A stretch of DNA of 41,562 nucleotides from Frankiaceae bacterium (GTDB lineage: Bacteria > Actinomycetota > Actinomycetes > JAFAQI01), in the NCBI GenBank assembly GCA_030840585.1, contig JAVEEG010000028.1, positions 1 to 41,562 of the forward strand, read 5' to 3'. Both the position numbers and the translations under genes were made by a program. The first letter of the stretch is position 1. Each line of letters starts with the position of its first letter. Below are positions 9,059 to 41,562 of the stretch, in pieces. The notes under the pieces were generated by a model that saw only the letters and a list, made by a program, of their open reading frames with translations, searched no databases and was not told where the DNA came from.

Positions 9059-9538
9059 GTGCATCCGCTGGTCGAGCCGTACGCGGCCTACCTCGGCACG
9101 TGGCGCGGCGAAGGCGTCGGCGGCTACCCCACCCTCGACACCGACTTCCGTTACGGCGAAGAGATCGTGATCGCCGAGTACGGCAAGCCCGTGCTCGCCT
9201 TCAGCAGCAGGTCGTGGTCGCTCGACGACGACCGACCGCTGTCCCGCCAGGAAGGCTTCTGGCGGCCGATGTCCGCGACCGACCTCGAGGTCGTGCTCGT
9301 CATCGCCTCCGGCTTCGCCGAGGTCCTCTACGGCCAGCTCGTCAGCGGCCCGGCCGGCGCGCACGTCGAGATGGTCACCGACCTCGTCGCCCGCACCGCG
9401 TCGGCGAAGGAAGTCACCGCGGAAAAGCGGATGTACGCCGTCCGCGCCGACAAGCTGATGTACGCGATCGACATGGCCGCGCTCGGCAACGAGATGGCAC
9501 CGCACCTGTCCGCCGCGCTGGATCGGGTCAGCGACTGA
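9059..9538 (+). CDS. Nitrobindin-like heme-binding beta-barrel protein
   Basis: 159 aa, the size of bacterial nitrobindins (THAP4 heme-binding-like fold). LGTWRGEGVGGYPT (12-25) is the family signature, followed by alternating strands and the TAKEVT-like segment ASAKEVTAEKRMYAV. His149 in APHLSAAL sits where the axial heme ligand lies in mycobacterial nitrobindin. Such proteins bind ferric heme and react with NO or peroxynitrite; the role here is unproven. GTG start 18 nt after the sugar transferase, so possibly co-transcribed. Its last 11 nt overlap the convergent GGDEF-EAL gene. Confidence 0.85.
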   Translation: MHPLVEPYAAYLGTWRGEGVGGYPTLDTDFRYGEEIVIAEYGKPVLAFSSRSWSLDDDRPLSRQEGFWRPMSATDLEVVLVIASGFAEVLYGQLVSGPAGAHVEMVTDLVARTASAKEVTAEKRMYAVRADKLMYAIDMAALGNEMAPHLSAALDRVSD

Positions 9539-12515
9539 CCACCGGCAGCTGCGACACCAGGTGCCATGACCGCGGCCCGCGCGCGGCGTCCAGCGCGTCG
9601 GCCCACAGGCCCGGCCGGGCCAGGTAGAAACCCTGCACCAGATCGGTGCCGAGTGCGCGCAACGCGAGGTACTGCGCGGCCGTCTCGACACCTTCTGCGA
9701 CGACCCGCAAGCCGAGGCTGCGGGCGAGTTGCAGGATCGTCTGTACGACGGCGAGCGCGTCGTCGTCCTGCGGGATCGCGGCGATGAAACTCTTGTCAAT
9801 CTTGAGCTCATCGACCGGAAACGCGCGCAAATATGCGAGCGACGAGTAGCCGATGCCGAAGTCGTCGATCGCCAGCCGGACGCCCAGCTCGCGCAGCCGG
9901 ACCAGCCGGCGCATGTTCGCCTCCGAGTCGTGCATCAACACGCTCTCGGTGATCTCCAACGTCAACCGCTGCGGCGCCAAGCCGGAGGCCGCCAGCGCGT
10001 CGCGCACCTGCTCGACGATGTTCGGATCCGCGAGCTGCCGGCCGGACAGGTTGACGTTGAGCGAGCCGCCGGGATTCCAGTGACCCACCGTCGTGCACGC
10101 CTCACGCAACACCCATGCGCCGATCGCGACGATCAGGCCGGAGTCTTCGGCCACCGGGATGAACTCCGCCGGATCAAGCAACCCGAGCTCCGGATGCGAC
10201 CACCGCAACAGCGCCTCTACGCCGACGACATCGCCGTCTCCCAGTGACACGATCGGTTGGTAATGCAGGATGAACTGGTCGCCGTCGAGAGCGTGTCGAA
10301 GCGCGGCCGAGAGTTCCATCTGCCGTAACGCGGCGGCGTACATCGCCGGCTGGAAGACCTCGTACCGCCCGCCGCCGACGGCCTTCGCGCGGTACATCGC
10401 AACGTCGGCGTTGCGCAGCAGGTCACCGGCGGTGATCCCGTGCGTCGCCACCGCGATGCCGATGCTCGCGGTCCCGGTCACCTGCTGGCCGCCGATCACC
10501 ATCGGCGTGCTGAGCGCCGGCAGCAATCGCGCTGCCTGCTGCTCCGCCCGACCCTCCGGACAGTCCTCCAGCAGGATCGCGAACTCGTCGCCGCCTAGCC
10601 GGGCGACCGTGTCGCCGAGCCGTACCGCGTCTTCGAGCCGGCGGGCCACCTCGACCAGCATCTCGTCACCGACCGCGTGCCCGAGCGAGTCGTTGACCAG
10701 CTTGAACCGGTCGAGATCGAGCAGCAGTACGACGGACGAGCCGGCGCCGAGCCGGCGGCCGAGCGCATGCTCGACCCGATCGTGGAACAACGCGCGGTTC
10801 GACAACCCGGTGAGGCTGTCGTGAAAGGCCTGGTGTCGCAGCTGCGCGTCGAGTGCATTGCGATCGGTGACGTCTTTGATCGCGACCAGAACCGCGTCGT
10901 GGCCGGCGAACTCCAGCCGGTGCGAGGTGATCTCGACGTCGATGATCCGGCCGTCCGCGAGCAGGTGCCGCCAAGAGTCGGTCTCTGATCGCCCGGCGCT
11001 CCCACCCGCCAACCCGTCGAGCAGCGGCGCGACGTCCTCGCCCGGCCGGATGTCCGTGATCAACAACCCGAGGAACTGCTCGCGGCTGTACCCGTAATGA
11101 CGCACCGCGGCTTCGTTGACTTCGAGGAACTCCAACGTGCTCAGGTCGTAGACCCACATCGGTTGCGGGTTCGCCGCGAACAGCAACCGGAAGCTCGCTT
11201 CGCTGTCGGCGAGTGCCTGCCGGGCGCGCGTCTGCTCGGTCACGTCGCGGGCGATCGCCGCGAACGCCGCGACCTTGCCGTTGCCGTCGAGGATCGGTGA
11301 CAACGACAGCGACACGTCGACGAGCGTCCCGTCTCGTCGCTTGCGCTGTGTCTCGATGGGCGGCAGCCGTTCGCCTTCGCGCGCGCGCCGCATGAGTTCG
11401 TCGCGCTCGTCGAGGCGTTCGTCCGGCACCAACCGGCGGATGTCGCTGCCCACCATCTCCGCGGCGGTGTAGCCGTACATGCGCTCGGCCGCACCGTTCC
11501 ACGAAAGCACGGTCCCGTCGAGGTCTTCACCGAGGATCGCGTCCGACGACGACGCGACGATGGCAGCGAGCTGGCGCCGTACCCCTTCGGCATGGTGGCG
11601 TTCGGTGACGTCGGTGTAGTTCACGACGAGGCCGTTGACCGCGGGATCGTGCATCAAGTTGCGGACCCGCGCCTCGCACCAACGCCAGGCTCCGTTCGCA
11701 TGTCGCACCCGGACCTCGACGGTCGCGATCGCGTCCGGCGCGTGCAACGACGCGAGCGTTTGCCGCGCCGTCGCGAGGTCGTCCGGGTGGACGTAACCGA
11801 GACCGTCGGTCCCAATCCGTTCGGTGGTGTCGTAGCCGAACACGTCGCGGATCGATGGGCTGTCCCAACGGATTATCGCGTCGGCGTCGAGGACCGAGAT
11901 GACGTCGGACGACTTCTCCACCAGCGCGCGCAGCCGGCGCTCGCTGCCGCGGACCGCAGCCTCGGTCGCGAGCAGTCGCGACGCGACCAAAGACGCGCAT
12001 TCACCGACGAGGAGGCAGACCGGCAGCGCGTACGAAAGACCACCGGCGAGGGTGCCGAGATCATGTACGACGAACCCCGGCCCGAGGTAGGCAATTACCA
12101 GCAACGGCGCCGATTTCAGCGCGGTGCCGCTCGGGTGCATGAGCCCGATCCACACGTAGACGACGAAGAAGAACACGTCGTAACGCAGGCCGTTGTCGCC
12201 GGCGAACAAGTTGTGCAGGCTGATCAACGCGAGCGCGAGCGGGATGAGCCACAACGACGAGCTGCGTTCCCAGCGCTCCCACGGCAGCGCGCCGATCACG
12301 ATGCCGGACAACGCCGCGATCAGGCCGACGGCGACGAGCCCGAGCGGGTGGACGTGCGGTCCGGCGGGGATCAGCGGCGCGAGTCCGGTGACCAGCAGGC
12401 CGCAGAGGCAGAACAGCACGCTGGACAGCAGGCCGGCCATTTTTGCGGTGCCGAACTCGGGGAGTTGCAAGCGGCCGGAAGCGAACAGCGTGGCACCCCG
12501 CTGCGGCAACCGCAT
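9528..12515 (-). CDS. Membrane PAS-PAS-PAS-GGDEF-EAL c-di-GMP protein
   Basis: 995 aa. About six to seven N-terminal membrane segments (26-185) lead into three PAS domains (about 190-310, 312-430, 438-556). The cyclase domain keeps DLDRFKLVND (600-609) and an intact GGDEF (641-645). The phosphodiesterase domain keeps EAL (767-769), LEITES (853-858), DDFGIGYSS (884-892), KIDKSF and AEGVET. Both activities look possible: synthesis of c-di-GMP from two GTP and its hydrolysis to pGpG, set by membrane or PAS signals. Start ATG 12515; ATG 12440 (MAGLLSS) is an alternative. The end overlaps the nitrobindin gene by 11 nt. Confidence 0.93.
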   Translation of the reverse strand: MRLPQRGATLFASGRLQLPEFGTAKMAGLLSSVLFCLCGLLVTGLAPLIPAGPHVHPLGLVAVGLIAALSGIVIGALPWERWERSSSLWLIPLALALISLHNLFAGDNGLRYDVFFFVVYVWIGLMHPSGTALKSAPLLVIAYLGPGFVVHDLGTLAGGLSYALPVCLLVGECASLVASRLLATEAAVRGSERRLRALVEKSSDVISVLDADAIIRWDSPSIRDVFGYDTTERIGTDGLGYVHPDDLATARQTLASLHAPDAIATVEVRVRHANGAWRWCEARVRNLMHDPAVNGLVVNYTDVTERHHAEGVRRQLAAIVASSSDAILGEDLDGTVLSWNGAAERMYGYTAAEMVGSDIRRLVPDERLDERDELMRRAREGERLPPIETQRKRRDGTLVDVSLSLSPILDGNGKVAAFAAIARDVTEQTRARQALADSEASFRLLFAANPQPMWVYDLSTLEFLEVNEAAVRHYGYSREQFLGLLITDIRPGEDVAPLLDGLAGGSAGRSETDSWRHLLADGRIIDVEITSHRLEFAGHDAVLVAIKDVTDRNALDAQLRHQAFHDSLTGLSNRALFHDRVEHALGRRLGAGSSVVLLLDLDRFKLVNDSLGHAVGDEMLVEVARRLEDAVRLGDTVARLGGDEFAILLEDCPEGRAEQQAARLLPALSTPMVIGGQQVTGTASIGIAVATHGITAGDLLRNADVAMYRAKAVGGGRYEVFQPAMYAAALRQMELSAALRHALDGDQFILHYQPIVSLGDGDVVGVEALLRWSHPELGLLDPAEFIPVAEDSGLIVAIGAWVLREACTTVGHWNPGGSLNVNLSGRQLADPNIVEQVRDALAASGLAPQRLTLEITESVLMHDSEANMRRLVRLRELGVRLAIDDFGIGYSSLAYLRAFPVDELKIDKSFIAAIPQDDDALAVVQTILQLARSLGLRVVAEGVETAAQYLALRALGTDLVQGFYLARPGLWADALDAARGPRSWHLVSQLPVVSR

Positions 12516-12582
12516 CCGTCTTTATCGGCTATCCGCGACCCGCATGCCAGGGTTCCGGGAACTAACTGCCGCAACGGATGGG

Positions 12583-12652: not shown

Positions 12653-14866
12653 TCATCCGACCCGCTGCGGCGGCACGCCCTCGTCGCCGTAACTGAACAG
12701 CGGCGCGCCGCGGTCGCTTTCCAGCAGCCGGGAGATGTGCGACGGCGGTTGGGGCGTGGTGAAGAAGTATCCCTGGGCGAGGTCGCAGCCGAGCCGGCGC
12801 AACGCGCGCAGCTGGTCGAGGTTCTCGACGCCTTCGGCGATCGTGGTCAGCCGCAGCGCACGGGCCATGCCGGCGACCGCCGCAACGATCGCGGAATCGT
12901 CGCCGTCGACCGCGAGACCGTCGACGAATGACCGGTCGATCTTCACCGCGTCGACCGGCAGCCGCTTGAGATACGACAGCGACGAGTAGCCGGTACCGAA
13001 GTCGTCGACGGCGAGCCGGACCCCGAGTTCGCGCAACGACGACAGCGCGGTGACGGCGCCTTCGGCGTCTTCGAGCAGCGCGCTTTCGGTGATCTCGAGG
13101 CCGAGCTGCGACGCCTCGACGTCGTGGCGGGCCAATGACGAGGCGACCAGCTCGACGAGTCCGGGATCGCCGAGTTGGCGGGCGGACAGGTTGACCCATA
13201 CGGCGAGCGCGGCGCCGTCGAAGCGCGACGCCGACCATGCCGCCGCTTGAGCCAGCGCGGTGTCGAGCACCCACGCGCCGATGCCGGCGATGAGGCCGGT
13301 CTGCTCGGCGAGCGGGATGAACTCCGCCGGCGGCACCAGCCCGCGTTCGGGGTGATGCCAGCGCACCAGCGCCTCGACGCCGGTGACGTGACCGGTGCGC
13401 AGGTCGACCTCGGGCTGGTAGACGACCCGGAATTCTTGTTCGGTCAACGCGCGATGCAGGTCGTTCGCGGTCCGCAGCCGGTGCACCGCGGTCGCGCGGT
13501 AGTCCTCGACGAACAGCTCGCTGCGCGCGCGGCCGCGGTCCTTCGCCCGGTGCAGCGCTGCGTCCGCGTCGCGCAACAACGTCTCCGCGGTGGCCAGCGC
13601 GCCGCTGCCACCGGACAGCGCGATGCCGACCGAGATGCTGACGAACACTTCGTCGCCGTCGAGCTGGAACGGCGTCGACATCGTCGAGTTGATGTGGTCG
13701 GCGATGGCGAGCGCGTCGGCCTCGCCGGTGACGCCCGGCACCAGCAGGCAGAACACGTCGCCGCCGAATCGCGCGAGCAGATCGGTCGGACCGGTGATGC
13801 TCTTCAACCGGTCGGTGACAAGGCGGAGCATGAGGTCGCCGGAGGCATGACCGAACGAGTCGTTGACCAGCTTGAAATGGTCGAGACCAAGCAGCAGTAC
13901 GGCGACCTGCTGCGACTGATCCGCGGCCGCGTCTATCGACGTACCGAGGGCGTCGATCAGCACGACCCGACCGGGCAGCCCGGTGAGGGCGTCGTACAGA
14001 TTTGCTTGCGCGAGTTGCTCTTCGAACGCGCGCTGCTCGGACAGGTCGCGGGTGATCGAGGAGTAGTAGTCGATCGACCCGTCCGGCCGGCGGTGCGCGA
14101 CGACGACTTGGGACACCGGTACTTCGGAGCCGTCCGCCAGCAACAGGTCGACTTCGCCGGTCCACACTCCGATCCGGTTCGCGGTCGGCAGCGCCTCGCC
14201 GATGAACCGGGCCCGCGACGACGGCGCGTAGACGTCGATCGCCCGCAGCGCGAGTACTTCCTCGTCGGTCGCGACCACGAACCGGGCCCGGGCCGCGGCG
14301 TTGGCGTAGGTGAACCCGCCCTGCGTGTCGACCATGGCGACGAGGTCCGGGGTGGCTTCGAGGATCTCGCCGAACCGGCGCAGGTCGGCGATCGCAGTCG
14401 TCTCTTCGGTGACGTCGACCGTGGAGCCGACCCAGCTCGCGACGTCGCCGTCGGCGTCGAGCAGCGGCCGCGCGTCGACGTGAATCCAGCGCACCGATCC
14501 GTCGTCCATCCGCCGGATCCGGAACGTCAGGTGCACGTCGCGCTTGGTCTCCCCGGCCTTGCGCCACTCGGTCTGGACCAGTGGCAGGTCGGCTTCGTAG
14601 ACCAGCCAGGCGCGCGCGTCACCGGGAGCGGTAGACGGATCGCCGGTGATTTCGCTCAGCTTCGGGTTGACATACAGCCGCCGGCCGTCGGGATCGACGT
14701 GGAAGATGCCGGCGGGGACGGTCTCGGCCATCATTCGCAGCCGGGACTCGCTCGCGGCCAGCATCGCGGTGGTCGCGGCGAGCCGCCGGCGGTCGCGCCG
14801 GCTGACGCCGAGGACGGCGGCGAGCACGATGACCGCGGCGAATGCCACCACGGTGATCGTGACCAT
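12653..14866 (-). CDS. PAS-PAS-degenerate GGDEF-EAL protein (probable c-di-GMP phosphodiesterase)
   Basis: 737 aa from ATG 14866, beginning with one membrane helix (4-21). Two PAS domains follow (about 41-157 and 165-283). The GGDEF domain is damaged at both metal positions: GLDHFK (327-332) replaces the usual D-x-D-x-F-K, and GGDVF (368-372) replaces GGDEF. The EAL domain looks intact: EAL (498-500), LEITES (593-598), VDDFGTGYSS (620-629), KIDRSF and AEGVEN. It is therefore probably a phosphodiesterase whose GGDEF domain serves as a GTP sensor or dimer module. The open frame reaches 15064, but the first 66 residues are Arg/Pro-rich and run through a promoter-like region. Confidence 0.9.
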   Translation of the reverse strand: MVTITVVAFAAVIVLAAVLGVSRRDRRRLAATTAMLAASESRLRMMAETVPAGIFHVDPDGRRLYVNPKLSEITGDPSTAPGDARAWLVYEADLPLVQTEWRKAGETKRDVHLTFRIRRMDDGSVRWIHVDARPLLDADGDVASWVGSTVDVTEETTAIADLRRFGEILEATPDLVAMVDTQGGFTYANAAARARFVVATDEEVLALRAIDVYAPSSRARFIGEALPTANRIGVWTGEVDLLLADGSEVPVSQVVVAHRRPDGSIDYYSSITRDLSEQRAFEEQLAQANLYDALTGLPGRVVLIDALGTSIDAAADQSQQVAVLLLGLDHFKLVNDSFGHASGDLMLRLVTDRLKSITGPTDLLARFGGDVFCLLVPGVTGEADALAIADHINSTMSTPFQLDGDEVFVSISVGIALSGGSGALATAETLLRDADAALHRAKDRGRARSELFVEDYRATAVHRLRTANDLHRALTEQEFRVVYQPEVDLRTGHVTGVEALVRWHHPERGLVPPAEFIPLAEQTGLIAGIGAWVLDTALAQAAAWSASRFDGAALAVWVNLSARQLGDPGLVELVASSLARHDVEASQLGLEITESALLEDAEGAVTALSSLRELGVRLAVDDFGTGYSSLSYLKRLPVDAVKIDRSFVDGLAVDGDDSAIVAAVAGMARALRLTTIAEGVENLDQLRALRRLGCDLAQGYFFTTPQPPSHISRLLESDRGAPLFSYGDEGVPPQRVG

Positions 14867-14966
14867 GTGCTCTACATCGCCTTCGCGCTGGGGAAAGTTC
14901 ACGAAGGACCGTCGGATGGCCCCCCGGCACGGTGCCGTGCTCAGCGTACGGCGGCGAGCGGCGCCG

Positions 14967-14995
14967 ACGGCCCCGAAGCCCGGAGTAGGGGCCGT
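14967..14995. promoter_or_regulatory. 8-bp inverted repeat in divergent promoter region
   Basis: ACGGCCCC and GGGGCCGT form a perfect inverted repeat around a 13-nt spacer. It lies about 100 nt upstream of the PAS-GGDEF-EAL gene and 150 nt upstream of the NlpC/P60 gene. It may be a regulator site or an RNA hairpin; no known operator is recognised. Confidence 0.35.
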
Positions 14996-15078
14996 TGTCC
15001 GGTATCGGTAAGGTCTTTGCCGGAATGCCGGAATTGCGCCGACTCCGGTCAAGATCACGCCCACATTCGCCGAGACAT

Positions 15079-15117
15079 CACCAGCCAGCTGGTGTCACAG
15101 CAGTCACACCGGTCACA
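15079..15117 (+). promoter_or_regulatory. Palindrome plus three GTCACA boxes (MtrA-like) upstream of NlpC/P60 gene
   Basis: CACCAGC-CA-GCTGGTG is a perfect 7-bp inverted repeat (15079-15094). It runs directly into three GTCACA hexamers starting at 15094, 15103 and 15112, exactly 9 bp apart. GTCACA direct repeats are the reported type of binding site for the actinobacterial response regulator MtrA, which controls cell-wall hydrolase genes. The last box ends 26 bp before the ATG of a wall hydrolase. MtrA itself is not in the window, so the assignment is inference. Confidence 0.55.
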
Positions 15118-21043: not shown

Positions 21044-21086
21044 CGACTAGCTGCAGTACTGACCGGTTTGGTCTGAGGAGACAGAA

Positions 21087-23630
21087 GTGTTCGCTTCGCT
21101 GAGCGGTAGCCCACGCCGCCTGCGGAACCTTGTCCTCACGGTGTACGTGCTCGGTTTCGCCTGCATGGCGGTCGCGGGTGTCTACGCCCGTGAGGGGAAC
21201 GCGAAGGTCAGCGGGACACATGTCCTGCTGGCCGCGTTCCTCGTTGCGGCCAGCGAACTCGCGGTGATGCACCTGCGATTCGGTGGCGAGCGGTACACGT
21301 ACACCTGGAGCGAGGCCGCGGTCGTCCTCGGCATCGTGCTCATTCCGTATCCGCATCTCGTGCTCGTCGCGCCGCTGGCGGTTGCGCTAACGCACAGCCT
21401 CAGCGGCCGGCAGCCGATGAAGGTCTACTACAACGCCGCGTCCGCGGCGATCGCGGTCACCGTCGCCCGCTTGACGATGGTGGTCGTGAGTGGGCACGGC
21501 ATGGTGACCTCCAGTGCCGGCTGGCGGTACTGGGTCGGGTTGGCCTGCGCCGCAGGTGTCTACTCCATCGCCAACTCGGCGACGACGACCGCCGCGGTCA
21601 GCGCGTCGCAAGGCGTGCCGATGGGTTCCGTCCTCCGGCGGCACCTGCCGGCAACCCTCGGCGTGCTGGCCGGCAACACTCTCGTCGCCGCGCTGCTGTT
21701 GCAGATCCGTTGGAACGCCGCCACGGTCGCGATGCTGCCGGTGCTGCTGGGTCTGCTCTACACGACGTACCGCGGCAACCTCTCGGCCCGCGAAGACCGG
21801 GACACCTGGCGTGAACTGGAGGCCGCGAGCAAGGACCTCGCCAGCCTCGACGTCGACCAGGTGGCAAGGGTCGCGGTCGAACGTTCGTTGCGGCTCGCCC
21901 GCGCGGACGAGGTCGAGATCCTGTTGCGCGCCGATGATTTTGGCGGCCTGCAGCGCTACCACCTCGGCCCGGCGGGCGAGGTGTCGGTGACCCAGACCGA
22001 CGCCGGCGTGCTCGACCTGCTCGACCTGCAGAGCGGCGCGCTCGTCAGCTCGGTGTCCGAGTCGATCACCTCCGGTACGGCGACGTCGTCGCACGCGCTG
22101 GTGCTGCGACTCGACAGTCCGGAGAACGACCAGGCGCTCGGTGCGCTGCGACTGCAGTTCCGGTCGGGCGTACGGCTCACCGACCGCGAGCGCCAGGTGC
22201 TCGTGACGTTCGGTCGTTCGGTGGCCGCGAGCGTCTACAACGCACAGCTGTACGAGCAGACGCGCGAGGCTTCGCGCCGGCATGAGCACGAGGCGACGCA
22301 CGACTCGCTGACCGGCCTGCCGAACCGGGCACTGCTGGTCCGCCGGGCCGCCGAGTACCTGGCCGTCCCCGACGCAGCGGTCAGCCTGCTGCTGGTCGAC
22401 CTCGACCACTTCAAGAGCATCAACGACACGCTCGGCCACCCGACCGGCGACCGCTTGCTGCAGGCCGCCGCGCAACGACTCCAAGCCGTGCTTCGGACCA
22501 CCGACACGATCGCGCGGCTCGGTGGCGACGAGTTCGCGATCCTGCTGCCGGACACGCAGTCGGCCGAAGATTCCGAGCGAGTCGCGAAGGCCGTGCTCGC
22601 CGCGCTCGCGACCCCGGTTCTCGTGGACGGGCTGCGGCTGTCGGTCGAGGGCAGTGTCGGCATCGCGCACTACCCGGCCGACTCGCTGAACGTCGACGAA
22701 CTGCTCGCGCACGCCGATATCGCGCTGTACCAGGCGAAGACCGCGCGTGGCTCGTCCCGGACGTACAGCCGCGACCACGACGACAGCTCGGTGTCCCGGC
22801 TCACCCTCGCGGCCGAGCTGCGGTCGGCGTTGGCGCGCGACGAACTGGTGCTGCACTTCCAGTCCCAGCACTCGGTGGCCGACGGCCGGCTGGTCGCGGC
22901 CGAGGCGCTCGTTCGCTGGCACCACCCGCAGCGTGGTCTGTTGCCGCCGTCGGAGTTCATCAGCCTCGCCGAGGACTCCGGCCTCGCGCACGACTTCACC
23001 AACTACGTGCTGAGCAAGGCGATCCGCGAAGCGGCGACGTGGCGCGACCTCGGCGCTGACCTGCACGTGTCGGTCAACCTGTCCGCCCGTAACCTGCTCG
23101 ACCCCGCGTTGCCACAGGCGGTCGAGACGGCGTTGCAGCGGCACAACCTGCCGCCCAGCGTGCTTGTCCTCGAGATCACCGAACGCACGATGATGAGCGA
23201 GCTGGAGGTCGTCGAGCGCGTTCTCGGCGAGCTGCGGCAGCTCGGCGTACAGCTGTCGGTCGACGACTTCGGCACCGGCTACTCGTCGATGACGTTCCTC
23301 ACCCGCGCCGCCGTCAACGAGCTCAAGGTCGACCGCGACTTCGTCTCACGGATGACGGTGTCCGAGAGCGACGCGGCGATCGTCCGGGCGACGATCGAGC
23401 TGGCACACGGTCTCGGCCTGCGCGTGGTCGCCGAAGGTGTCGAGGACGCGGAGACGTTCGCCGCGTTGCACGCGCTCGGTTGTGACATCGCGCAGGGCTT
23501 CCACCTCGGCCGCCCGATGCCGGCGGACGTCTTCCGGTCGCGGATTCTCGCGAGCGAACCGCCGGTCGCGCGGGTCGCCGCGCAGCGCGGGCCGTACGAC
23601 GCGCGGGTCGTGGCGTTGCGCCAGCGCTAG
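21087..23630 (+). CDS. Membrane GAF-GGDEF-EAL c-di-GMP protein
   Basis: 847 aa. Six to seven N-terminal membrane segments (15-230) resemble a MASE-type sensor. A GAF-like domain (about 245-385) follows, then GGDEF with DLDHFKSIND (438-447) and intact GGDEF (479-483), and EAL with EAL (606-608), LEITERTMM, VDDFGTGYSS (725-734), KVDRDF and AEGVED. Both cyclase and phosphodiesterase sites look complete. GTG 21087 has GAGGAG at 21075-21080, 6 nt away. It begins 43 nt after the subtilase with no terminator seen between, so the two may be co-transcribed. Confidence 0.93.
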   Translation: MFASLSGSPRRLRNLVLTVYVLGFACMAVAGVYAREGNAKVSGTHVLLAAFLVAASELAVMHLRFGGERYTYTWSEAAVVLGIVLIPYPHLVLVAPLAVALTHSLSGRQPMKVYYNAASAAIAVTVARLTMVVVSGHGMVTSSAGWRYWVGLACAAGVYSIANSATTTAAVSASQGVPMGSVLRRHLPATLGVLAGNTLVAALLLQIRWNAATVAMLPVLLGLLYTTYRGNLSAREDRDTWRELEAASKDLASLDVDQVARVAVERSLRLARADEVEILLRADDFGGLQRYHLGPAGEVSVTQTDAGVLDLLDLQSGALVSSVSESITSGTATSSHALVLRLDSPENDQALGALRLQFRSGVRLTDRERQVLVTFGRSVAASVYNAQLYEQTREASRRHEHEATHDSLTGLPNRALLVRRAAEYLAVPDAAVSLLLVDLDHFKSINDTLGHPTGDRLLQAAAQRLQAVLRTTDTIARLGGDEFAILLPDTQSAEDSERVAKAVLAALATPVLVDGLRLSVEGSVGIAHYPADSLNVDELLAHADIALYQAKTARGSSRTYSRDHDDSSVSRLTLAAELRSALARDELVLHFQSQHSVADGRLVAAEALVRWHHPQRGLLPPSEFISLAEDSGLAHDFTNYVLSKAIREAATWRDLGADLHVSVNLSARNLLDPALPQAVETALQRHNLPPSVLVLEITERTMMSELEVVERVLGELRQLGVQLSVDDFGTGYSSMTFLTRAAVNELKVDRDFVSRMTVSESDAAIVRATIELAHGLGLRVVAEGVEDAETFAALHALGCDIAQGFHLGRPMPADVFRSRILASEPPVARVAAQRGPYDARVVALRQR

Positions 23631-36689: not shown

Positions 36690-37307
36690 TCAGGTGTGCG
36701 AGGGGCTGGGGCTCGGGGTGGCGTTCGCGTACGCGCCGACCTTCTTGAGCAGGCCCGGCGGAACCTGATTGCCAAGCGTGGGGTCCTGGTGCAGTGCGAT
36801 GTTCAGGTCCTTGATGCCCTGCGCCAACTCACCGTGCGCGGCCTCGAGCAGGCCGAGGTTCAAGTAGGCGGTGGGCGCCTTCGGCTGCAGCGCCACTACC
36901 CGCCGGTACGTCGTGATCGCGAGGTTCGGGTCGGTGGTCGCGAAGATCGTGGCCTCGTTGAACATCGCCGGGACGTACCTCGGGTTGATGGTGAGCGCGG
37001 CGCCGTACTCCCGCAGCGCGGCGGCGTCGTCCTTGGCCTGCTGGTCGAGCACGCCGAGGTTGTAGTGCGCGTAGAAGTTGTTCGGCTGCTTGGCCAACAC
37101 CTGCTCGAACAGTTGCCGCGCCGCGTTCGCGTTGCCCTGCTGCTGGGCCTTGATCCCGGCCGCCAGCAGCGTGTTCGCGTCGGCCGGCTTGCTGGCGTCA
37201 CTGCTCCCGCCACAGGCGGTCAGCAGGGCGAGAAGCGCGACTACGCCAGCGCCCACGGTAAGCCGTAGCTGGTGAAACGGACAGGTGGGCACGATCGAGC
37301 ACTTCAA
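36690..37307 (-). CDS. TPR-repeat lipoprotein
   Basis: 205 aa from TTG 37307. The N-terminus has a hydrophobic core (17-29) and lipobox LTAC (Cys32), so it is anchored on the outer face of the membrane. About four TPR units follow (43-178): [33 protein letters not shown], then [26 protein letters not shown] and [21 protein letters not shown] tail ends it. TPRs mediate protein contacts, perhaps within the glycan assembly machinery whose gene follows after 1 nt. GTG 37292 is an alternative start, but TTG has the far better ribosome-binding site. Confidence 0.82.
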
Positions 37308-37314
37308 GGGTTTT

Positions 37315-37320
37315 CCTTCC
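37315..37320 (-). promoter_or_regulatory. Ribosome-binding site supporting TTG start of the TPR lipoprotein
   Basis: On the minus strand GGAAGG lies 7 nt before TTG 37307. The alternative GTG 37292 would be 22 nt away, so the site decides the start. Confidence 0.6.
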
Positions 37321-37398
37321 CTTCCGGGCACCGGTGTGGTTAGAGTACGGCCTTGCCGCCACGGGGGCAGGCCCCGGTGCGGCACGAGGAGACCCTGC

Positions 37399-39018
37399 AT
37401 GTCACGTTCGCGTAAGCGCCAAGTTGCGATCAAGGCCGGCACCATCGGAGCGGCCGCAGTCGCTGTTTCCGGTGCTGCCGCAGGTTGGATCGGCGTCGCA
37501 AGCGCCTCGATCCCGAACGCGGACGGCAAGATCTACGCCTGTTACAACACCAACGGCGTGCTTCGGGTCATCGACTACCCGACACAGAACTGTGTTCGCG
37601 GCGAGCGCCACCTCAACTGGTTCGCCCACGGCCCGCAGGGTGCTCAGGGCGCCCGCGGCGCTCAGGGTGCGCAGGGCTCGACCGGGCCGCAGGGCTCGAC
37701 CGGGCCGCAGGGCAGCCAGGGTGCGACCGGCGCCCAGGGCCCGCAGGGCGCGAACGGCGCGCAGGGGACGCAGGGCGCGACCGGTGCCCAGGGTGCGACC
37801 GGTTCTCAGGGTCCGCAGGGCGTGAACGGTCTCCAGGGCTCGCAGGGCGCCACCGGTGCTCAGGGCTCGCAGGGCGCCACCGGTGTCCAGGGCTCGCAGG
37901 GCGCGAACGGTGTTCAGGGCTCGCAGGGCGCGACCGGCGCTCAGGGCTCGCAGGGCGCGACCGGCAGCCAGGGTTCGCAAGGTGCCGACGGTACCCAGGG
38001 TGCGCAGGGTGCCCAAGGTGCCAGCGGCGCGGCGACGTTCCAGGGTGCGCAGGGTGCTCAGGGCGCCGACGGCGCTCAGGGCAGCCAGGGCTCGCAGGGC
38101 GCCGACGGTGCACAGGGCAGCCAGGGTGCGACCGGCGCTCAGGGTGCCACCGGCACGCAGGGTTCGCAGGGCGCCGATGGCGCTCAGGGTGCGACCGGCA
38201 CGCAGGGTTCCCAGGGTGCGACCGGCAGCCAGGGTTCCCAGGGCGCCACTGGTCCGCAGGGCGCCGCTGGTCCGCAGGGCGCGACCGGTTCGCAGGGTGC
38301 GCAAGGTGCCCAGGGCGCGAGCGGTGCGGCCACGTTCCAGGGCTTCCAGGGCGCGAACGGTGCCCAGGGCGCCCAGGGTGCCACCGGTGCTCAGGGTTCG
38401 CAGGGCGCCACGGGTACCACTGGTACCCAGGGTTCGCAGGGTGCCACCGGCACGCAGGGTCCGCAGGGCACCCAGGGCTCGCAAGGTGCCCAGGGTGTCG
38501 CCGGCCCGCAGGGCTCGCAGGGCGCCACCGGCGCGCAGGGTGCCAACGGCGCCCAGGGCGCGACCGGAGCGCAGGGCCCGCAGGGCTCAGCCGGCCCGCA
38601 GGGCACTCAGGGCGCGCAGGGCGCCAACGGGACCCAGGGCGCGACTGGCGCTGGCACGCAGGGCTCCCAGGGTGCGCAGGGCGCGACCGGCACCCAGGGT
38701 CCGCAGGGCGCGGTTGGTCCGCAGGGCAGCCAGGGTCCGCAGGGCGCCAACGGCACCCAGGGTCCGCAGGGCACCCAGGGTCCGCAGGGCAACGCCGCCG
38801 CTACCTCGACGCGGGTCGCTTTCCAGGCGGGCGTCGGGACGGCAACGGCGTCCTGCCCGGCTGGCAGTGTGGCGACCGGCGGCGGCTTCTCCAACCCGAA
38901 CAGCCAGACGGTGACGCTCTCCGCGCCCGCGGGCGGCATCACCAACCCAACGGGCTGGCAGGTCACCGTGGCAAGCCCGACCGGTGCGATCACCGCATTC
39001 GTGGTCTGCTCGCCGTAA
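37399..39018 (+). CDS. Secreted collagen-like Gly-X-Y repeat protein
   Basis: 539 aa from ATG 37399 (GAGGAG at 37386-37391, 7-nt gap). The signal-like N-terminus (basic 1-12, hydrophobic 13-33) is followed by a short domain with Cys48 and Cys65 ([16 protein letters not shown]). Gly-X-Y triplets run from residue 78 to about 461, with X = Ala, Ser or Pro and Y mostly Gln, Thr, Asn or Asp and never Pro. Three breaks are visible (GAATFQG twice, GAGTQG once). The C-terminal domain (about 465-539) has [15 protein letters not shown] and FVVCSP. It probably forms a surface or matrix triple helix. A strong terminator follows. Confidence 0.9.
37630..38785 (+). repeat. 9-bp-period DNA tandem repeat encoding Gly-X-Y triplets
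   Basis: About 380 triplet units, dominated by GGC-GCG/GCC/TCG/CCG-CAG and GGC-GCG/GCC-ACC. Near-identical 18- and 27-bp blocks recur, as expected for expansion and contraction by slippage or recombination. Period 9 and coding phase are kept throughout, so it is not a CRISPR array. Confidence 0.9.
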
Positions 39019-39036: not shown

Positions 39037-39079
39037 CAGGGCCGTCGTACCAACTGGTACGGCGGCCCTGCTGGTTTTA
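39037..39079 (+). terminator. Intrinsic terminator of the collagen-like gene
   Basis: A 15-bp stem (39037-39051 with 39056-39070, one T-G wobble) closes a 4-nt AACT loop. CTGGTTTTA follows, giving a canonical factor-independent terminator 19 nt after the stop codon. Confidence 0.9.
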
Positions 39080-39122: not shown

Positions 39123-39143
39123 CATGTCGGGTCCGACGACATG
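39123..39143. promoter_or_regulatory. Palindrome just upstream of the GGDEF-EAL-HTH gene
   Basis: CATGTCG (39123-39129) and CGACATG (39137-39143) form a 7-bp inverted repeat; a nested GTCGG-GT-CCGAC shares the same region. It ends 7 nt before the ATG at 39151. It may be an operator, possibly for the HTH protein itself (inference). Confidence 0.45.
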
Positions 39144-39150
39144 AGTAACG

Positions 39151-40731
39151 ATGAGCATCGCCGACGCCGTACCTACCGCCGGCCGGGCCGAGTTGCCCCG
39201 CCAGTTGACCGAATCGCGCCCCCGTAACCGTGACCGGGACTCACTGACCGGCTTGCCCGGCCGATCGGCCCTGCTGAGCCGGTTGCGCGCGGCCATCGCC
39301 GACGTCGCCGTCGGCGGCCGTGGCTTCGCTGTCTTCACCGTCGACCTGGACCGGTTCGCCGACGTGAACACCGCGTACGGCGGAGACGTTGCCGATCGCC
39401 TGCTGGTGGCGGTCGCCGCCCGGCTGGCCGCGTGGGCCGGGGATGCCGACTACGTCGCGCGAGTCTGCGGCGACGAGTTCGTCGTGGTGCGGTTCGGGGT
39501 CGAGCCGGGGCGGGTCGCCGAGGCCGCCCGGGCACTGCTCGCGGTCGTCGCGACACCGGTCGACGTGGGCACGCACCGCATCCACGTAACCGCGACCGTC
39601 GGCGCGCTCGCCGCGGCCGTGCCGTGCAACGCCGACCAACTGCTCGCGTCCGCCGCGGCGGCTCGGGTGCACGGCAAGCGGGCCGGCGGCGCCCGGGTGG
39701 TGTTGTTCGACCCCGTCATGACCCAGACCGCGCGCACCCGCGTCGAGTTCGCCAACGACCTCGGTCGCGCGCTAGACGACGACGAGATTTCCCTGCATTA
39801 CCAACCGATTGTCGACCTCGCATCCGGTGCGTTGGTCGGGCTCGAAGCGTTGCTGCGCTGGGATCACCCCGAGCGCGGCCCGATCGCGCCGGGCCAATTC
39901 GTCGAACTCGCCGAACAGACCGGCTTGGCCGTCGACCTCGACGCGTGGGTGTTGCGGCGGGCCTGTACCGACGCAGCTCGGCTCCGCGATCGCGGCATCC
40001 TCGGCGGCGAAGGCTATGTCTCGGTCAACCTGTCCCCACACACGTTGGCCGCTGGTGAGGTCAGGCAGCTGCTGACCTCCGCGCTGGCGACGTCCGCGCT
40101 GGCTGCGCGCAACCTGCTTGTCGAAGTCAAGGAAGCCGGGCTGCTCTCGACCGATGGCGTGTTCGAGGCGGTCGAGGTCCTGCAACGGCTCGGCGTGGGT
40201 GTCTCGCTCGACGCGTTCGGTGCCGGCGGTGCAACGCTCGCCGATCTGCGCTCGTTCGCGTTCGCGACATTGAAGATCGACCGGTCGTTCGTACAGGCGA
40301 TGAGCGAGAGCGCGGACGCGTTGACGGTCGTCGCCTCCGGCATCGAACTCGCCCGCGGCCTCGGTGCCGGCGCGGTCGCGATGGGCGTCGAGACCGAGCG
40401 CCAAGCGACCATGTTGCGCCACCTCGGCTGCGACTCCGGACAGGGTTATCTGTGGAGCGAGCCCATCCCGTTGCCGCAGGTCGCTCGCGGGCTGCAGGGT
40501 TCGCGCTTCGGCGGGCCGACGTGGGTCGGCGGCGCCACTGATGTCGACGAGATCACCGCGGAGCACGGCCTGTTGCGGATCGTCGCGCTGCATCAGAGCG
40601 GCGCGTCACCGGCGAGCATCGCGGCCGCGCTCAACCGGGAGGACTACCGCAGTCCGCAGGGCCAGCGCTGGCACGCCCGCACCGTCGAGGTGGCGCTGCG
40701 CCGGCTCGACAGTTACATCGTCACGTCCTGA
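39151..40731 (+). CDS. Degenerate GGDEF-EAL protein with C-terminal recombinase-type HTH (candidate c-di-GMP-responsive regulator)
   Basis: 526 aa, soluble, no sensor domain. GGDEF half: DSLTGLPGR (29-37), VDLDRFADVNTAYGG (64-78), and CGDEF (106-110) in place of GGDEF. EAL half: LEALLRW is kept (231-237), but the double Asp is DAF (354-356), the AEGVE glutamate is Met411 (AMGVET) and LEITES reads VEVKEA. Both catalytic activities are therefore probably lost. Residues 475-520 (LHQSGASPASIAAALNREDYRSPQGQRWHARTVEVALRRL) match the DNA-reading segment of large serine recombinases. It may bind c-di-GMP and DNA. The end overlaps the next gene by 11 nt. Confidence 0.82.
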   Translation: MSIADAVPTAGRAELPRQLTESRPRNRDRDSLTGLPGRSALLSRLRAAIADVAVGGRGFAVFTVDLDRFADVNTAYGGDVADRLLVAVAARLAAWAGDADYVARVCGDEFVVVRFGVEPGRVAEAARALLAVVATPVDVGTHRIHVTATVGALAAAVPCNADQLLASAAAARVHGKRAGGARVVLFDPVMTQTARTRVEFANDLGRALDDDEISLHYQPIVDLASGALVGLEALLRWDHPERGPIAPGQFVELAEQTGLAVDLDAWVLRRACTDAARLRDRGILGGEGYVSVNLSPHTLAAGEVRQLLTSALATSALAARNLLVEVKEAGLLSTDGVFEAVEVLQRLGVGVSLDAFGAGGATLADLRSFAFATLKIDRSFVQAMSESADALTVVASGIELARGLGAGAVAMGVETERQATMLRHLGCDSGQGYLWSEPIPLPQVARGLQGSRFGGPTWVGGATDVDEITAEHGLLRIVALHQSGASPASIAAALNREDYRSPQGQRWHARTVEVALRRLDSYIVTS

Positions 40732-41562
40732 ACTGACTCACCGCCGGCAGGGGCTGCGGCGCGCTCGACGTCGAGCTCGTCTCTTCGGTCAACGGCTGGG
40801 CGAGCAGCCACAGGCTGAGCATCGTGTAGCCGACCATCGCGACGAGCCAGGGATATTCGCTGCGCTTGGCCGCTCGCTCGTCCGCACCCGCGGCCCGCAG
40901 GTGCCGGTGCGCGATCACGACCGCGATGACATGCACGGCGACGATCACGACGAGTGCGATGTACCAGAACACGGAGTTCGGCAGCACCGTCGTATTCGGA
41001 TCGAAGTCGTCGTTGAACGGATACGGCAAGTGGATCGGCCAGCTCTCGGTGCCGGGCGGGTTGCCGATCAGCGGGAACATCAGCTGGCCGTTGACGAGGA
41101 TGTACTGCAGGTTGTGCGCGAGCAGGTAGCCGAACGCGATCGGCAGCAGGCTCGGCAGCAGCTCGGCGAACGCCGGGCGCACGCCGCCGGGATGCCGGCC
41201 GGCCCGCGCGGCCGCGACCGCGAACGCGCCGAACACGACCGCCAACGTCAGCGCCAGTACGACGAAACTGCCGACCCGGAACAGGTGCTGTGAGCCCGGG
41301 TGGAACGTGATGTCACCGCCGGGCAGGCCACGCTCGACGTCGGCCCACTGCGGCGTCGACAGCAGGCCGTCGAAGTTGACACTGAACAGCAGCAACAGCA
41401 CGAACGCGATTCGCGACACCGTCGGCGCGAACGGCACCTCGAGCCCGCCGGCGAAACCACGCCGTCCGGGTGCGCCGAACCGGAAGTAGCCGAGCCGGCC
41501 CCAGGTGTCGAACAGCACCGTGAAGACTTCGCCGCGGTTGAACCATTCGGCGCCGAACAGCA
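40721..41562 (-). CDS. Multi-pass membrane protein, unknown function (5' end outside window)
   Basis: At least 280 residues; the frame is open to the window edge, and the first visible residues are LFGAEWFNRGEVFTVLFDTWGRLG. About five membrane segments follow, with SVNFDGLLSTPQW, AHNLQYILVNGQLMFPLIGNPPG and a C-terminal pair. The GAEWF...GEVFTVLF...FDGL pattern resembles an actinobacterial integral membrane family of unknown function. No transporter or enzyme motif can be named with confidence. Convergent with, and 11 nt into, the GGDEF-EAL-HTH gene. Confidence 0.7.
   Translation of the reverse strand, partial: LFGAEWFNRGEVFTVLFDTWGRLGYFRFGAPGRRGFAGGLEVPFAPTVSRIAFVLLLLFSVNFDGLLSTPQWADVERGLPGGDITFHPGSQHLFRVGSFVVLALTLAVVFGAFAVAAARAGRHPGGVRPAFAELLPSLLPIAFGYLLAHNLQYILVNGQLMFPLIGNPPGTESWPIHLPYPFNDDFDPNTTVLPNSVFWYIALVVIVAVHVIAVVIAHRHLRAAGADERAAKRSEYPWLVAMVGYTMLSLWLLAQPLTEETSSTSSAPQPLPAVSQFRT

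Follow-up and report, generated by a model that had tools for sequence, protein, structure and literature searches.

A conserved GGDEF-EAL protein with a degenerate EAL active site and a recombinase-type helix-turn-helix tail in the Frankiaceae: a candidate c-di-GMP-controlled regulator

In Actinomycetota, the c-di-GMP receptor that is usually named is BldD. In the literature searched, a single worked example exists of an EAL protein that binds DNA. This is PdeL (YahA) of E. coli, in which a helix-turn-helix (HTH) is joined to the EAL domain and which binds its own promoter, its DNA-binding output being controlled by c-di-GMP (PMC5052742). FimX and LapD are degenerate GGDEF-EAL effectors with ExLxR as their stated binding motif and with protein contacts as their outputs (PMC12564702). 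RmdA and CdgA of Streptomyces, from the same phylum as the protein described here, combine PAS input with domains in GGDEF-EAL order, and have complete active sites and no described HTH tail (PMC7911125). Serine recombinases, both small and large, couple a catalytic domain (PF00239) to an HTH region (PF07508).

The locus described here has something in common with each of these. The window, the whole stretch of 41,562 nucleotides that was analysed (Frankiaceae bacterium, contig JAVEEG010000028.1), encodes a protein with the following layout:

39151..40731, plus strand: open reading frame, 526 aa, GGDEF-EAL-HTH, with orthologs in genomes G001 and G002
39232..39690, plus strand: GGDEF domain, residues 28-180 (Pfam PF00990, 8.4e-26, match 29-180)
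39466-39480, plus strand: CGDEF motif, residues 106-110, within the GGDEF domain
39754..40464, plus strand: EAL domain, residues 202-438 (Pfam PF00563, 2.5e-62)
40210..40218, plus strand: D354-A355-F356 in place of DDF, an M2 metal ligand being lost (ligand roles from PMC5301497)
40381..40383, plus strand: Met411 in place of the AEGVE glutamate, equivalent to RocR E352 (role from PMC7911125 and PMC12900916)
40540..40728, plus strand: C-terminal recombinase-type HTH, residues 464-526, with helices at 465-482, 487-496 and 509-525

About 27 residues precede the GGDEF domain, and Pfam finds no sensor domain. Like PdeL, the protein combines EAL with an HTH, and control of DNA binding by c-di-GMP is predicted for it; unlike PdeL, whose HTH is N-terminal and of the LuxR type and whose EAL domain is active, it has a C-terminal recombinase-type HTH, a GGDEF domain and a degenerate EAL domain. 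It resembles FimX and LapD in its degenerate GGDEF-EAL pair with ExLxR retained, and c-di-GMP binding without cleavage would be expected, but neither of those proteins has an HTH tail.

The initial annotation, made from the sequence alone, had described both active sites as dead. For the GGDEF domain this is less certain than for the EAL domain, because the change in its motif is limited to the first glycine; CGDEF does lie at 106-110, as had been noted, and it is the same in both orthologs from the genus, while the other listed PleD-type residues appear to be kept. Alignments further show ADVN where FKxIN is usual and GKRAGGAR where AKxxGR is usual. These two changes may point to lost GTP contacts.

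The EAL domain matches EAL structures in fold (TM, normalised to the target, about 0.9) and belongs by fold and sequence with the EAL phosphodiesterases. The motifs of the protein start at CGDEF 106, EALLR 232, VNLS 292, VEVKE 324, DAFGAG 354, LKIDR 374 and AMGVE 410. At twelve aligned positions checked, E232, R236, N293, E325, E328, D354, K375, D377, E414 and Q431 are retained and two are altered, the second aspartate of DD and the EGVE glutamate; the substitutions first read as DAF and Met411 were thus verified. In PA3825, E39, N98, D130 and D160 hold M1, whereas M2 is bound by D161 and D183 and has E217 close by (PMC5301497). The residues listed for RocR are E175, Q161, R179, N233, E265, D295, D296 and E352 (PMC7911125); A355 and M411 correspond to D296 and E352, while the equivalents of E175, R179, N233, E265 and D295 and the KID lysine are retained. 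The metal and catalytic set (E, N, E, DD, K and the glutamate of EGVE) is therefore incomplete, and a published rule predicts that an EAL domain lacking the EGVE catalytic residue is inactive (PMC12900916). With EALLR (232-236) kept as an ExLxR motif beside the changes at 355 and 411, the pattern is that of a degenerate receptor. The GTGYSSL loop, in addition, reads GAGGATL.

These changes are not confined to one genome. Two orthologs from the same genus (G002:C8 and G001:C151), 76-81% identical to the window protein and 79-80% identical within the region matched in the search, both retain CGDEF, VEVKEAG, DAFGAGGATL and AMGVE in the alignment. Pairwise dN/dS (NG86) among the three species of the genus is 0.17-0.27 overall, 0.11-0.22 for the EAL domain and 0.19-0.32 for the tail. 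Since the orthologs share the same changes and dN/dS is low, the protein is maintained in its altered form. Sequencing error as the cause of the degenerate motifs is ruled out by the same observations, the changes being shared by orthologs under purifying selection.

The tail had been proposed to be the HTH with which large serine recombinases read DNA, without any catalytic recombinase domain. The absence of PF00239 in the Pfam scan bears out the latter point, and the protein is not a serine recombinase. The Recombinase model PF07508 matches residues 477-517 at 0.012 in the full protein and 3e-4 in the tail alone, which is about at its cut-off; all of 20 aligned family tails match it, the best at 1.3e-7, with G-A-S, A-A, L-N and W invariant. 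A profile of the tail retrieves recombinases with PF00239 and PF07508 at about 1e-15, and pairwise comparison with ten recombinase HTHs gives z = 8-15 over shuffled sequences. An AlphaFold model of the tail, from an alignment that included four viral recombinase sequences, has three helices (pLDDT 87), and the full-length model, with no recombinase sequences in its input, has the same three. Recombinases are the top fold matches: in the PDB a serine integrase on attL comes first (prob 0.95, TM 0.64, Foldseek E not significant), and in the viral library BFVD resolvases and invertases (prob 1.00, TM 0.77-0.80, E not significant). For a domain as short as this, at 63 residues, the E-values (0.1-0.9) do not reach significance. 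Searching the sequences of solved structures with the profile of the tail gave nothing above chance.

Taken on profile and model similarity, the tail shares its ancestry with the DNA-binding domain (the PF07508 region) at the C-terminus of serine recombinases, small and large. The restriction to large recombinases was too narrow, as small ones match as well: since the profile retrieves proteins such as L079 (258 aa), L080 and L086, which combine a PF00239 resolvase domain with the same C-terminal module, small serine recombinases are among the closest relatives of the tail. The HTH is C-terminal in the window protein as in these small resolvases, from which it differs in having no catalytic PF00239. 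The tail also led to four large recombinases in viral contigs, while no GGDEF-EAL relative was found in the viral contigs searched.

The layout was initially thought to be singular, and this view has to be abandoned. Sampling of relatives, which came from about seven families in the class, yielded 34 EAL proteins with a recombinase-type tail. The window's own genome encodes three such proteins besides the window protein. Among the 31 members with a complete EAL domain, all twelve active-site positions are intact in 25. The six degenerate members are the window protein, its two orthologs, and one each in G045, G022 and G062; in all six the EGVE glutamate is replaced, by M, M, M, V, V and G. Many members are extended at the N-terminus (683-1187 aa), with PAS domains in the one that was scanned. 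Most members have the look of active phosphodiesterases, so the tail did not originate with the dead window protein; like PdeL, these other members probably bind DNA and are active as phosphodiesterases. The window protein itself, its active site being incomplete, does not qualify as a PdeL-like trigger phosphodiesterase, a role for which canonical paralogs such as L002 and L012 are candidates.

All genomes with a degenerate member (G000, G001, G002, G045, G022 and G062) also carry canonical tail-bearing paralogs, and in G045 and G022 the degenerate gene (L050 and L052, respectively) adjoins a canonical one. The loss of catalysis in L050 and L052 was apparently independent of the window clade. 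In the EAL tree, this clade sits on a long stem branch (0.76) and its position is uncertain. The unconstrained tree requires 6 changes for the presence of the tail on EAL domains, and the AU test does not reject a single origin of the tail, with its bearers in one clade (p = 0.19). In the phylum sample, no strong tail matches were seen outside the seven or so families of the class; the wider phylum search outside the window's own genome gave only short frames (141-248 aa), which are too short to encode an EAL domain plus the tail.

The preferred reading, to which we assign a probability of roughly 0.55, is that the window protein is a DNA-binding regulator that binds c-di-GMP but is catalytically dead, and that it descends from a family of probable PdeL-like DNA-binding phosphodiesterases. 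We infer that the protein binds c-di-GMP and DNA and regulates targets. The EAL domain, having lost the second metal site and the catalytic glutamate, would bind c-di-GMP without cleaving it. Binding of the ligand, probably accompanied by EAL dimerisation, would alter the presentation of the two C-terminal HTHs, and the dimer would then bind or release DNA half-sites, such that transcription is regulated according to the level of the signal. Two features of the EAL domain might modify this scheme: the loss of M2 could also weaken c-di-GMP binding, and the retained M1 site may leave the protein some residual activity.

It is unlikely that the protein regulates through DNA but has ceased to respond to c-di-GMP, with the EAL domain serving as a structural scaffold or dimeriser, and that it competes or forms mixed dimers with active tail-bearing paralogs. 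The co-occurrence of degenerate and canonical members in six genomes, their adjacency in two of them, the long stem of the window clade and the altered GAGGATL loop would all fit such a role. Yet most residues with a known role in holding the ligand or M1 in EAL domains are retained, and the recognition helices of the window protein and its paralogs differ, which argues against shared sites. Somewhat more doubtful is the proposal that the tail uses an HTH fold for protein-protein contact or oligomerisation rather than for DNA; the tail has no more than a mild positive charge (net +2) and searches gave no operator, but its invariant G-A-S, A-A, L-N and W residues recur in recombinases, and recombinases of the same class carry this domain at their C-terminal end.

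It is improbable that the protein has genuine, if weak, phosphodiesterase activity, or is a variant dependent on metal, and binds DNA as PdeL does. It retains the M1 ligands and the KID aspartate, and metal occupancy differs among solved EAL domains (PMC5301497), but the EGVE glutamate has been lost together with the second aspartate of DD, and the published rule classes such a domain as inactive (PMC12900916). There is very little chance that the gene is decaying and the tail a fortuitous fusion: against several motif losses stand an intact frame, identical changes in three species, purifying selection and the presence of the tail on 34 EAL proteins. Pseudogene decay as such is ruled out by the overall dN/dS of 0.17-0.27 together with the conserved architecture.

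The following features were noted around the gene and elsewhere in the window:

37285-39018, plus strand: collagen-like Gly-X-Y repeat gene (PF01391, 1.2e-60), directly upstream of the open reading frame
39037..39070, plus strand: terminator-like hairpin of 15 pairs, between the collagen-like gene and the open reading frame
39123..39143, plus strand: inverted repeat CATGTCG-N7-CGACATG, kept in G002; the left arm is CAGCCCG in G001
39128..39146, plus strand: 19-bp block CGGGTCCGACGACATGAGT adjoining the start codon, a candidate cis element or translation start region
40721-41560, minus strand: convergent gene that shares 11 bp with the 3' end of the open reading frame and whose product looks multi-pass
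9531-12521 (minus strand), 12656-15094 (minus strand) and 21063-23627 (plus strand): three further GGDEF-EAL genes without the HTH tail

The hairpin suggests that the gene probably has its own promoter. The inverted repeat, put forward earlier as an operator, is rejected as one: the window holds 9 perfect 7-bp repeats with a 7-bp spacer, against 2-11 in simulated sequence, and the left arm is lost at the G001 ortholog. Besides the site at the G002 ortholog, no further perfect copy was found in the three genomes of the genus. The block CGGGTCCGACGACATGAGT is present once per genome in all three, each time at this gene, and no regulon site emerged from these genomes. It may be an operator of the gene or simply the translation start region, and autoregulation through it is possible. 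The collagen-like gene, a possible target or a mere neighbour, is also found near the G001 ortholog, and what reads as its C-terminal part lies near the G002 ortholog. The full-length G001 relative of the convergent gene has no Pfam match.

In the open-licence literature, whose coverage is incomplete, no EAL protein with a recombinase-type HTH was found described, in line with the initial annotation, and no NCBIfam model was found for this combination; the wider actinobacterial family is apparently undescribed. The family as a whole is of greater interest than the one dead protein. It would be a second, independent solution beside PdeL, with a different DNA-binding domain and with members in about seven families of a single class, and would add a candidate class of c-di-GMP receptors in Actinomycetota. 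A tentative generalisation, which we rate below even odds, is a c-di-GMP-controlled DNA-binding family whose HTH was taken from serine recombinases; its active members would both read and erase the signal at promoters, while its dead members, having arisen more than once beside active siblings, would be pure receptors. Because active and dead versions occur naturally side by side, the role of catalysis in such switches is directly testable.

Tail-like HTHs were also seen in other frames. Two frames in the same family, L081:1372-1884 (171 aa; no NCBIfam match) and L084:1189-2001 (271 aa), contain two of them in tandem. In three small proteins (L085, L087 and L089), which come from large-genome members of the class, an RRRGRPP stretch is followed by the same type of HTH with no other evident domain.
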